Positions 42,301 through 60,300 of a stretch of 64,000 nt of DNA are shown here, in pieces. The DNA is from Diphasiastrum complanatum (Eukaryota > Streptophyta > Lycopodiopsida > Lycopodiales > Lycopodiaceae). How positions within the stretch are numbered: the first letter of the stretch is position 1; each line of letters opens with the position of its first letter. The DNA lies in contig CM055101.1 of the NCBI GenBank assembly GCA_029204225.1, positions 60,903,340 through 60,967,339 of the forward strand, in the 5' to 3' direction. The translations under genes were made by a program, and so were the position numbers. The notes beneath the pieces are model-generated. The model was not told where the DNA came from, did not search any database, and saw nothing but the letters and a program-made list of their open reading frames with translations.

Positions 42301-45300
42301 TGTGCGGACCCTATTCCTTTGGCAGGATGGGTGCACAATATCTTGGATGCCAACCTTTTAGAAGGCTGTCCCTCCAATCAAGAAAATGACTGGTTCTTCC
42401 TTTTTGAGGAGGGATTTTGAACGCTGCAAATGGTTTTGGAGGCCGAATGTCCCCTCCTATTCTTTGGAAAAAAAATGCTGCCCCTTCAATGACTGTCAGG
42501 ATTCAAACCTCCCGGCGGTAGTCTTGAGAACCTATAGTGTCTAACCTAGCCATTAAACAACCATTGGACCACTATCCTAATCAATATTCCTATCGAATCT
42601 ATGGCTGAGAGGCAAGGGAAGTTATAGCCCTGTATCTTAATGATATCATGGATGAATTTTCAGTGTCTTCAAATTTGGAATTGACCAATAAATTTTCAGA
42701 TTCTCTGTTGGAATACAATCAGAATAAATGAATTTCTAGCTACTGTTATAGGCTGGATTTTTTGAAACAGGCAGGTTTTTTGCAGAAAAATCCAAATCAT
42801 AGGCTCAATATGCAGCAGTAGCATTGTAGAATACACAGCTGGAAGAGGTCTATAAGAAGCCAAAGACATGATGTCTATCTAACTACCAAAAATCATGTTG
42901 AAGATTGTATGTCCATGTCCTATAATGAGGATTTGGAATAATCCTTGACGTGCATATTCTCCACTCCAGTGTTCGAGTTTATTAGTTACACCTCAAAATT
43001 CCGTTCAAGGCCAGTTACGTAATTAGTAACCTTGAGAGGGCCTAGTTATGACATGTGGAGTAGTGCATAGTGTTTGACGGTTTTATGCATGTTGAGGAGT
43101 ATCAATAGTAACTTCAATTGAGTTTAGCAGCCATGTGAAATTTTTAGACACTTTGAGAGAACCATAAGTGTCAAGATCCAAACAATTTTTGACTGTGAAA
43201 CTTGTTAATGCAAAGTAACCAAGAGACAATCTACCAAGTAACCATGCATCAAGATCTTCCTTCCAAATACATAAATGATCTAGACAAGATTGAAAACTTG
43301 ATTTTAGTTCATGATACAAATCACATCTATGATACGAGATACACTTCTTTTATGTACTAAATTCGAAGAGAGAGAGAGAGAGAGAGAGAGAGAGAGAGAG
43401 AGAGAGAGAGAGAGAGAGAGAGAGAGAGAGTCTTTTCCATGCCCTAAGGCATATAAGACCAAACAGTACATCAAAAGAGATGGAAGTCAGACAGATCAAT
43501 GCTGTCAAACAACTTAACTAAAAATAGATTAACTAACTAAGAAGAGAATTTATGGCCAAGATTTTATGGTGCGAAGACCGTTTACAAGTTCAACTGGACA
43601 TCTCTTCATTTCTCTAACTCTGATTCTATTCAAACTCTCACTAATAGCATTACATTAACTGGACATCTGAAACTCAAACTCAACTATTCTAGCTTCGAAT
43701 TCCGACTTGACCAATATCTATTTTGTTTCAGCTAAATGTTTAGCTTCAACAAAACAAATTTTACGGTCTCTATATCTGAGGTGTTTCCCTGTATCTTCAC
43801 TTTTTGCAGAACCTCTTTTCTTTCCATCACTTGTACAAAGGTGAGTTCTTCATCCAGGAAGATCTTGGTATCTTTCAATTTATATCTTTGATGCAATACA
43901 TCCCGTCGAGACTCCAACGAGGTGAGGTTCAAGACTGGGGTGCTAGCATCTTTCTTGGTACGTTAGGCTGAGTTCAAACCTTTGTCATGATGATGAAGAG
44001 TAGCTTACAAATTTTTTTTGGCTTCTACAAGGGCATCCTGAGGATCCGTGACGCCTCTGACACGAACATTGCGGGCCTTTTGCTCTCGCAATCGGCTCTC
44101 AGTAAGTGTACCAGAAATGAAAGAAACTAGAGCATCCGATTTACCTGGACCTTTGAGCACATCTGCCCAAGATTGCATAGCTATATGATGCTGCTCCACT
44201 TTACTTTCGAGTTGCTGGATCGTAGATGAAGTAGCTACGTGAGAGGATGATGCGCATTGGATGGCTGTAATTTTCTATTTGAGTTCTACAATGGATGCAT
44301 CTGCCCGCTGCGGGTGTGATTGAATTGATAGGATCAGTTCACGGTGACCATCCATCTCTTTCCGGTGGATGGCAAGAAGTCCAAAGACCCTTATCATTTC
44401 TGCACTGAGTAGGGTTTTGTTGATTGCATGTTAGTGGTGCTGTCGATACGACCTCTAGACTATGTTTTTTGGACAAAATTTGTTGAAAATTTACGTTTTT
44501 TGGCTATAAACTGATTGTAAGAATTAGTATTGAGCAAAATCAGAACTTTCTGATCCTTAGAAGGATTGTCTTATCTGTAATTAGGACTGGCTGTAACTTG
44601 TACTTGCATGAAGTTAAGATCCATCAAAACGTGCGAAAAGAGTCAAAATCTGGTCAAAATACATGGTGGCAAATGCAATGGAAATTTTTGATATTTCACG
44701 GCATGATGCTTATTTTTTGTTTGCCATGCCCATTCTCGATTTTTTTGAAATGTATCAAGTAGTTGTGAATTTTCTGAAGTTCTTAATTTTTAACTCAATG
44801 AATTTAGATTAGGAGCAAATTGAAAATAATGCGATCATAAAGGAATTTTGAGATGTTTTTCCAGTTGACTTACCTCATGGTTTTTCACCATCTAGATTAG
44901 TAGACCACATAATAGAATAAATTCCAAGTAGTCAGCCTATCTCTAGACAACCGTATCGATTGTCTTTGAAAGAAGAGATAGAAGTTAGTATACAAATAGA
45001 AATTTATGTTAGGATGGGAGCCTAGTAAGTCACCACAAGGTGCTCTTGTTTTTTTGAAGGGGAAGAAAGATGGAGGCTTCTACATGTGTGTGAACTATAA
45101 GGTAACTGTTAAAAATGAATATCGATTGCCAGGATGCATGATCTTCTGGATCGCTTAGGGGGAGCTAAATACTTCACTAAGATTGATCTCAGAATTGGGT
45201 ACCATCAGATTAGAATTCTTCTTAATGATGTGCAGAAACTTGGTTTTCAAACGAGGTTTGGACATAAAGAGTTCTTAGTGTTACCTTTAGGGTTAACGAA

Positions 45301-57300: not shown

Positions 57301-60300
57301 GAAAAGTAAATGAGACTTTGTTTAGAAAACTTGTGGGAAGTTTCATATATGCTACTATCACTAGGCCTGACATCTCATAACCTTGGTTCGAACCACACCG
57401 GGGAAAAAAAAAAACATGAACTTAAAATTTTTAAAAAAAATGGTTCAAATCATTTGTTTGGCATTTTAGAGAGAAGAAGAAGAAGAAGAAGAAGAAGCTT
57501 TATTAACGTCTTTTCCATGCCAAAAGGCGTATAAGACGAACAAGTACATCAGATAAAGTGGAACCAAGATGGAGCAGTGCCGTCAAACAACATAACTAAA
57601 AAACCAAACTAACTAAGAAGAGGATAATGTCCAGGATTATATGGTACAAAGACCATTTACAGATTCAATTGGCATCTCTTTAGTGCTCTAGCTCTCTCAC
57701 TAACTCTGAACAATCTCAGATGTCTCATTATTAGCAACGGGTTTAATATCTACAAGAGGTATGATACCATCCCTATAGATCAACTGCTTTCCATTCGTTA
57801 GAGCCTCCTATTTTACTTTTTTCTATTCTTGAACCTGAATGAAAGTAAGGTCTTCATCCAGGTATATCGTGGTGCCCCACAGTGTAGATCTCTTCCCTAG
57901 CACTTCATGACGACCAGTTGCAGATGCAAAGCGTATGACAAGAGTACCTGGGTCTTTCTTAGGCCGCCATGCGGTATCCATATCTTTGTGGTGGTGTTGA
58001 AGACTCTCTTCAAGAAACTTTTTAGCTTCACCAACAACATCATGGGAGTTCGTAATACCTCTAACTTGGACATCAAGAGCCTTTTGCTCTCGCAAACAGC
58101 TCTCGGTGAACGTAGCTGAGATAAATGACGGTGGAGGTGGTAGAACAACACTATTTAGGACCTTTAAGCACATCTGCCCAGGAGTGGACAGCGGTATGAT
58201 GCTGTTCCACTTGACTTTCAAGCTGTTGGATCTTAGCTGAAGTAGTCGAATGAGAGGAAGTTTGTAACTTCTTTCTTGAGATCATCGATAGACGAATCTA
58301 GTTTCTGAAGATGAGATTGCACAACTTGGATCGCTTCAAGAGAAAGAAGTTTTTTTCGATGGTCGTTGAGATATTCATATGAACGTAACTGATCTGCACG
58401 AGTGACGAAGATCATAAAGGCTGGAGGCAGGAGTGATTCCTCTTCTGGGGTATTCAAGGTCAAAGGGTCAGCTATAATGGATTCACTATTAGCAAGAATA
58501 GGATCTGACGGAGAGATAGGGATTGCAACTGGAATAGAAGGTAAAGGTGAAGGTGGATTGAAGGTAGGTGCAATGGACAGTCCAGATGCAGATGCGATGA
58601 TTCCACCTGAAGCAGGTACAACAGGAGCAGGTACAACAGCGATGGAGATGGAGTCCGGGCCAGTAGGTACATGAGCAGGTACAACAACGATGGAGATGGA
58701 TTCTGGGCCAGTAGGGCGCGGATCAGATGCAATGGCAATTTCCGGGCCAGCAGGGCGTGATGGAGAGTGGGGGAGTTACCTCCCCCCCTCTTGTGTGGAG
58801 CCATAGAAAGATGGAGCGCGCTGGCAACAGGTGGCTAGGAGGCAGCCAACGTGGCTAAGAGGCAGCCATCGCGGCTAGAGAGAGAGAGAGAGAGAGAGAG
58901 AGAGAGAGAGAGAGAGAGAGAGAGAGAGAGAGAGAGAGAGAGAGAGAGAGAGAGAGAGAGAGAGAGAGAGAGAGAGAGAGAGAGAGAGAGAGAGAGAGAG
59001 AGAGAGAGAGAGAGAGAGAGAGAGAGAGAGAGAGAGAGAGAGAGAGAGAGAGAGAGAGAGAGAGAGAGAGAGCCTTGAGGGTTTTTTTGAGTGTTTCATT
59101 GTACATTGTAATATGTATGGTGTCACATTAATGTTTTAAGTGACGAGTTCTAGTCATTTATGGAAGTTGGTAGTTACTAGCTAATGTTACAGATGATATC
59201 AAATAGATCATAGCTAAAACTGTGGGCAACAGATGGATCAAGAACCCTAAACCATAGGTGACAAGTATTGTTAGGTAACAAGACTCAAGAGTTGCATGTC
59301 AGGATTCAAATTTCACTATTGATTTATCACGAACATGTTACCCATTAACAGTAAGAAAGCACTTGTTTTTCACATAATCGAAGGGTAGAAACTAAGGGAG
59401 GGGGGGAAACCATAAAACCAATTCGCCGGTTCGAACCTGGAGAAGCCGATTCTTTCTTGATTCGAACTCGATTCAAACAGGGTTTCGAAAGGTACCATAA
59501 AACATTGTAAGTTAGTTTATGTCAGATCCTAGATAAACGTAAGTTGGTTACAGAATGTCAAGAAGTATAGGTTGATGCCACTCCCATTCATTGTGATAAT
59601 TTGACTTGCATACAGATAGCTAAGGACCCAATCTTTCATGCTCGTACTAAACATACAGAAGTTTACTATCGCATTATTCATGATAAAGTCTAGGCAAAGG
59701 AAATGGAACTTATCTATGTACCCACAAATGAGCAGGTTATGGATAATGTGATAAAGGGACTTAGCAAAGAAACATCTAGAAAATTTAGAGGTTGGGGTTT
59801 AGCCTAACCAACTAGTGATTAAGGAGTAATGTAGGAGATTGAGTGGAAGTTCACAAGGCCCACGTGAGTAGGGTAGTACCTACCGAGATATTGCCTATAG
59901 GGCACTTCAAGACTTGGTCTTATTCTCTTTCACTTGTAGTTGTTGTAATTTAGTTGATAGATGAGAGTGTGCCTACTTCAGGGTTTTGTGTGCTCTTATG
60001 TGAATGCTTCTATAGTCTCTTGTTGTTGTGGAGTTGGGGTTGCAAGTGTGTTAGACGACTAACAACCTTCACACTTAAGCTGAAAATCTTCCTACAATAT
60101 ATTCATAGTCCATCAATCAAATATGAGTTAACACTTTCATTGCAGATTTTAAAGTATTTTATGATTCAAGGGATAGATAAGCACTGAGAACACGGAAACA
60201 TTTGACCAGGTAATGTGTACAGGATGGAGAAAGCAACCTCAACTTGTCTTGCTTGACCACGGATTGTACAAGACACTTGATCCCTCTATTCGATCCCATT

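Follow-up and report, generated by a model that had tools for sequence, protein, structure and literature searches.

Degraded copies of a putative ORF1-only LINE family share a 3' hairpin tail with reverse transcriptase-bearing LINEs in Diphasiastrum complanatum

A 64,000-nt window of the Diphasiastrum complanatum genome (GCA_029204225.1, contig CM055101.1), to which all positions below refer, contains three copies (A, B, and C) of an element with one frame resembling open reading frame 1 (ORF1) of long interspersed nuclear elements (LINEs) and no reverse transcriptase (RT). We consider these to be, on balance, probably inactivated members of an ORF1-only LINE family that is long-lived and non-autonomous, mobilized in trans by RT-bearing LINEs (RT-LINEs) via a 3' hairpin that both carry, and mobilization through this shared hairpin is what we infer with the best support. 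A first-pass annotation, made by a model from the DNA letters, had proposed such a family in place of independent deletions. Since one untranslated region (UTR) is found at 3/3 ORF1-only ends and 0/4 RT-family ends, the ORF bears signs of selection, and saturation at silent sites between A and C has reached the level seen among the RT copies, we favor a family over three separate deletions of the window's RT-LINEs; the support applies to the RT-LINEs of this window.

Three broken copies share one layout

Copies A, B, and C, grouped together in the first-pass annotation, proved homologous by blastn (E 3e-93 for B-C, 3e-50 for A-B, and 3e-37 for A-C), and a 101-residue core of C is 61% identical to B and 52% identical to A. 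A tblastn search with RT pieces found no match inside A, B, or C, in keeping with their description as RT-less. The common plan claimed for them holds for block, core, UTR, and hairpin, but only C is near full length, extending to 58876, while A and B are 5'-truncated, near 44400 and at 52761. The coding region of C runs from a Pro-rich N terminus through a heptad-patterned stretch and an EQHH...SWADVLKG block to a core of about 140 residues ending near 57700. Matches to the block occur in the other two copies as well (84% over 25 residues in A and 71% over 21 in B), with SWADVLKG reading TWVDVLKG in B. All three reading frames are broken, by stops in every copy and additionally by frameshifts in B and C; in C, the coding region has frameshifts plus two internal stops in its last frame, and its Pro-rich N-terminal part contains a 48-bp duplication.

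Each copy finishes with the 3' end of the ORF1-like frame, a common UTR of about 150 nt, and a hairpin tail of about 45 nt, followed by a TC/TTC tail in 3/3 copies; no poly(A) tail was found at any of them. The order of hairpin, AATAAAG, and TC tail, previously given for all three, applies to B and C but not to A, where TTAATAAAG is absent and the hairpin passes straight into (TC)32. The family UTR motif reads TGTAAACGGTCTTCGCACCAT in A. Visual inspection of the flanking sequence revealed no target-site duplications (TSDs), although a TC target would hide one. The tandem repeat in the minus-strand leader of C (Table 1) is a possible promoter repeat.

A short 3' tail is common to both families

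We compared these ends with four RT-family 3' ends (37736, 60910, 61924, and 62337), three of which are attached to RT-LINE coding sequence while that at 61924 is UTR-only. Among themselves, A, B, and C match over their last 192-230 bp at 78-84% identity, a stretch that includes the expected UTR motif. Against the ends at 37736, 60910, and 61924, only 41-57 bp are common (84-93%), and against the fourth end (62337), which is more divergent, 25-45 bp (76-80%), which upholds the statement that the match is limited to the tail; the three closer RT-family ends match one another over the last 90-105 nt at 81-89%. The distribution of the ORF1-only UTR, 3/3 against 0/4, has an exact probability (by hand) of 1 in 35, with a 26-nt tail remnant at 52703 left out of the count. 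We therefore rejected three independent deletions from the window's RT-LINEs, as the A/B/C UTR occurs at none of the four RT-family ends.

The ORF end joins the same UTR in 3/3 copies, clearly in B and C and with looser alignment in A. The shared breakpoint of the first-pass annotation is better described as a boundary of homology, since the window contains no intact parent or full-length LINE from which to trace a deletion event. Somewhat unlikely, in our view, is that the copies are deletion derivatives of an unseen autonomous LINE in which ORF1 is followed by this UTR (serving as a spacer or as a genuine 3' UTR), then by ORF2 and the tail, and from which ORF1-only copies arose in one or more events, as HAL1 is reported to have done. 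Mammalian HAL1s arose independently several times according to passages of PMC5753468, the RT-LINE copies RT4 and RT1 (Table 1) seem internally deleted too, and such a parent would account for constraint on both ORF1 and the UTR. Against this derivation stand the constant junction between ORF and UTR, the lack of this UTR at the RT-family ends, and the silent sites between A and C, which are saturated as in RT pairs.

The shared hairpin has the form GTCTT..ATGCC-loop-GGCAT..AAGAC, with 68/70 pair cells paired over seven tails. Two double compensatory pairs (A-T to G-C and G-C to A-T), both inner, occur in the RT3 tail (62365-62337), and we regard the covariation support for a predicted hairpin as modest. 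Five of the seven tails, folded alone as 31-33-mers, gave z scores of -2.15 to -3.80. Rfam returned no known RNA family at gathering thresholds in 30000-64000, and no tRNA was found in the window. A structured block in the UTR upstream of the tail was considered and rejected, the long hairpin predicted there being unsupported (z -0.5 to -1.3; RNAalifold, 0/46 pairs double-changed).

The ORF1-like frame bears signs of purifying selection

In the single-frame stretches of A, B, and C, to which the codon test was restricted, differences fell at codon positions 1 and 2 in 55/117 cases for A-C (P 9e-6), 43/83 for B-C (P 0.0035), and 62/120 for A-B (P 5e-4). Jukes-Cantor dN/dS was 0.24 for B-C and 0.13 for A-B, while the silent sites of A-C were beyond correction. 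Since the first two codon positions have fewer substitutions than chance would give, the protein appears to have been under selection in the lineage leading to A, B, and C, and by this measure the ORF1-like ORF evolved under purifying selection.

Four-fold sites were identical at 6/24 positions in A-C (near random), 8/20 in A-B, and 15/27 in B-C, compared with 113/149, 127/153, and 117/146 in the UTR, counted from about the stop codon with the shared tail excluded (Fisher 2.4e-6 for A-C; P 9e-5 for A-B and 0.012 for B-C). Pairs of the RT family were identical at 8/28, 5/19, and 10/33 four-fold sites, and the 3'-terminal block of RT1 and RT4, here including the shared tail, at 89/105 positions (Fisher, P 2.5e-8 vs 8/28). 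We read this contrast as pointing to functional constraint on the 3' ends of both families, and the depth of A-C within the ORF1-only family as comparable to that of the RT copies, with A-B and B-C appearing less saturated. A recent origin was judged unlikely, as A-C silent sites are saturated, although B-C alone would not show that.

Decay from C to T was examined as an artefactual source of UTR conservation and set aside, as the contrast with third positions persists for transversions alone in A-C (P 0.0026) and A-B (P 1.6e-4), though not in B-C (P 0.43). Recombination of the UTR between copies, in place of constraint, is a possible explanation; the RT family has a similar pattern.

Pyrimidine tracts lie at most mapped 5' junctions

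Of six mapped 5' ends, five lie at a TC or pyrimidine tract, namely those of C, B, RT2 (at most about 10 bp away), the copy beginning at 62193, and RT4; the six do not include RT1, RT3, or the fragments at 31.6, 37.6, 39.4, and 39.8 kb. For B, the 62193 copy, and RT4, an earlier copy's tail provides the tract (mixed pyrimidine in one case), and no tail is visible before the 5' tract of C and RT2. Of the 128,000 strand-bases, 1,194 fall in tracts of (CT)8 or longer. Pyrimidine 5' junctions occur in both families, and these few junctions suggest that (TC)n is a common target into which the shared machinery inserts, its own earlier tails included.

At the insertion point of B, the tail remnant of an earlier element (CATGAAAAGACATTAATAAAG plus TC; 52680-52760, plus strand) is present, its body not being recognized. 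LINE ends at 60613-60899, 58877-59072, 62194-62310, and 36830-36914 adjoin very long, near-perfect CT/GA tracts, the longest about 285 bp, and the LINEs may be a main source or sink of CT/GA microsatellite in the genome.

In the cycle that we propose, the element RNA would encode one ORF1-like protein, with a coiled-coil-like stretch and a presumed RNA-binding core, and would end in the 30-nt hairpin that the RT-LINEs of the same genome also carry. The RNA would be translated and coated by the protein, which, judging from selection on the ORF, would prefer its own RNA. The RT of the other LINE would then recognize the shared hairpin, as cross-family conservation, covariation, and precedent suggest, and target-primed reverse transcription would proceed into (TC)n, often the tail of an earlier copy, as the 5' junctions suggest. 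The earlier proposal that the element rides on another LINE's RT through its 3' hairpin is partly supported, the hairpin being conserved across families and mobilization itself inferred.

A candidate type II ORF1p

From its layout, the ORF1-like frame likely belongs to the type II class of ORF1 proteins (ORF1p), a class described in part of PMC4120745. Pfam scans with pieces of A, B, and C (the cores, a piece of A, and the N-terminal part of C) gave nothing above the curated cut-off, with a sub-threshold RILP match in A (E 0.005-0.009), and the heptad pattern in C is the best of seven registers in a crude analysis with no control.

Host genes offer another origin for A, B, and C, as retrocopies of a gene family or retrogene whose mRNA happened to end in a LINE tail, which we regard as very unlikely. 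The codon-level constraint would fit a host gene too, and Pfam and PDB searches of the scanned pieces returned no ORF1 domain. However, the copies are diverged, two are 5'-truncated, their UTR is conserved, and B and C have TC junctions; the crude heptad-like pattern and a fragmentary L1ORF1p-like register also weigh against a host gene.

RT-bearing neighbors

Neighboring fragments matched RVT_1 in Pfam (E 3.8e-13 and 5e-10). Against the PDB, the partner RT matched 8c8j (RNA-directed DNA polymerase; E 2.8e-8), which we take to be an L1 RT, as well as four L1 ORF2p sequences (E 4.3e-8 to 6.9e-8) and R2 or R2-like chains (E 9.7e-8 to 1.8e-6), 8gh6 and 8ibw presumably being R2. Relatives of the elements were not found in viral contigs or, for the RT only, in prokaryote genome contigs, neither collection being expected to hold such elements.

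Apparent internal deletions, which template jumping or splicing might produce, occur in RT-LINE copies at 61193-61702 and 38278-38626 (minus strand) and join distant parts of the protein. Compared with the usual LINE layout, RT4 passes from KMKS straight to HVDFRKAFD, and in RT1 pre-RT sequence is followed directly by post-RT sequence.

No RT copy in the window has a complete 5' part, each being truncated, fragmentary, or running off the window. This bears on a two-component (bipartite) retrotransposon, in which RT-LINEs would lack an ORF1 of their own and be supplied by the ORF1-only element, with mutual dependence, a common hairpin read by one RT, a common (TC)n landing site, and coexistence until silent sites were saturated in both. 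Such an arrangement, a special form of our favored explanation whose odds overlap with it, seems to us distinctly unlikely. It would fit the common tail and target, the deep divergence in both families, the purifying selection on ORF1, and a tblastn search with C's pieces that found no ORF1-like sequence in the window besides A, B, and C; against it, most LINE superfamilies have two ORFs, according to part of PMC4120745. Since no RT copy has a complete 5' part, the absence of ORF1 there is uninformative.

The window also holds a piece of an ABC1 atypical kinase domain (47819-48202, plus strand; Pfam E 4.3e-19), which seems to belong to a host gene, and long open copia-type frames (31825-35672, minus strand) with RVT_2 (E 2.7e-76) in 31825-33621, which an RT-LINE fragment (31018-31557) adjoins. 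Chromodomain-bearing long terminal repeat (LTR) elements are present as well, and together with the copia-type elements and the ABC1 kinase piece they suggest a plant host.

Table 1. Features of the ORF1-only copies and neighboring RT-family elements
Feature	Position	Strand	Remarks
Copy C	57498..58876	-	Near full length: 5' leader, broken ORF1-like frame, 3' UTR, hairpin, AATAAAG
C, 5' leader	58805..58876	-	About 72 nt, mostly a 20-bp tandem repeat x2.4 (58831-58878); begins at (CT)98
Perfect (CT)98 tract 5' of C	58877..59072	-	Read as insertion target; by eye no LINE tail upstream
C, ORF1-like coding region	57700..58804	-	ATG 58804 to presumed natural stop TAG 57702-57700
C, 3' UTR	57538..57699	-	About 160 nt, specific to the ORF1-only family, plus TGTACT.. 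start of the common tail
C, tail hairpin	57508..57537	-	Shared with RT-LINEs
C, (TTC)n/(TC)n tail	57476..57497	-	
Copy B	52761..53762	+	5' end lost within the Pro-rich ORF; abuts (TC)14 in an older element's tail
B, tail hairpin	53723..53752	+	
B, tail	53763..53882	+	(TTC)n, then (TC)n
Copy A	43430..44400	-	5'-truncated, end approximate; 5' side without TC tract
A, tail hairpin	43430..43459	-	(TC)32 directly after
RT1, hairpin	37736..37765	-	Pre-RT coding 38626-38399
RT2	36599..36829	-	5'-truncated RT fragment (RVT_1), at most about 10 bp from (CT)38
RT3, hairpin	62337..62365	-	Two compensatory pairs; LINE coding pieces 64000-62766
RT4, hairpin	60910..60939	-	RVT_1 in 61079-61714
UTR-only RT-family copy, hairpin	61924..61953	-	Its 5' end 62193 abuts (TC)58

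Discussion

Several points weigh against our reading of A, B, and C as a mobilized ORF1-only family. The evidence is three copies within one window, and the ORF1p identity rests on layout plus one weak comparison, in which hhalign to an approximate human L1ORF1p segment gave 46 columns at 26% identity (probability 0.7%, E 0.08); a PDB search with the ORF1-like protein gave no match, and its AlphaFold model has a mean pLDDT (predicted local distance difference test) of 40. Selection on the ORF could have acted in autonomous parents. Equal depth with the RT copies applies to A-C only, and the B-C contrast between UTR and silent sites is weak, disappearing for third-position transversions alone. 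As for the hairpin, both compensatory pairs come from one sequence, the RT3 tail, and one pair is lost in B and likewise in C (a shared C-A mismatch). With 10-20 nt of flank, the two-stem hairpin is the minimum-energy fold in only 4/7 tails, while the C, 37736, and 62337 tails keep the inner stem and pair the outer arm otherwise. Lastly, the 5' end of A has no TC tract.

HAL1 was initially named as the nearest parallel, and like HAL1, which according to parts of PMC5322556 and PMC5753468 is ORF1 only, needs the RT and endonuclease of full-length LINEs, and forms a propagated population, the present element has an ORF1-like frame without RT. However, HAL1 is an L1 derivative with a poly(A) tail and TSDs, whereas here we find a TC tail, a hairpin common to RT-LINEs, and a family-specific conserved UTR. 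HeT-A of Drosophila (with TART/TAHRE) is another parallel, described in sections of PMC4700185 as an ORF1-only non-LTR element relying on the RT of another element. Unlike HeT-A, which the same sections describe as telomere-specific and in tandem arrays, the present element is associated with (TC)n tracts and a short hairpin tail, with no evidence of a telomere role, and its copies are not in head-to-tail telomeric arrays, A and C being on the minus strand and B on the plus strand, kilobases apart. Since neither the poly(A) tail of HAL1 nor the arrays of HeT-A were found, we propose a functional likeness only and assign the element to neither.

Plant and algal L1s provide the precedent for the tail. 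In maize and sorghum L1, the last 45 nt diverged by 0.144 compared with 0.570 for the whole, the hairpin has compensatory changes, and the 3' end is shared with short interspersed nuclear elements (SINEs), while Chlamydomonas L1-1_CR has a 3' end of about 80 nt in common with SINEX-3_CR (both from passages of PMC3747384). Experiments show stringent-type LINEs to require a 3' stem-loop, and such a stem-loop is described for plant and algal L1s (parts of PMC5135761 and PMC3747384). The likeness lies in a 3' terminus that is better conserved than the remaining sequence, that a non-autonomous partner also carries, and that forms a hairpin with compensatory change; their partners, however, are SINEs and their tail is poly(A), whereas here the partner encodes an ORF1-like protein and the tail is TC. 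Some non-LTR elements target microsatellites, inserting into simple repeats (in part of PMC4640811), as the few junctions here suggest for the present element. EKA genes of powdery mildew are also amplified sequences from LINE ORF1 (in part of PMC4641428), but they are truncated LINE copies co-opted by the fungus, and nothing of the kind is suggested here.

Documented ORF1-only LINE families include mammalian HAL1 and the telomeric HeT-A of Drosophila, and no plant ORF1-only LINE family was found among the matches listed in open-licence literature. If our reading is true, a long-lived plant ORF1-only family that a short hairpin links to its helper would allow the contributions of ORF1p and the 3' hairpin to template choice to be told apart. 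If selection on ORF1 took place in elements lacking RT, either ORF1p would act mainly on its own RNA or it would be needed from an ORF1-only source, and the question of why non-autonomous elements keep ORF1 would become directly testable.

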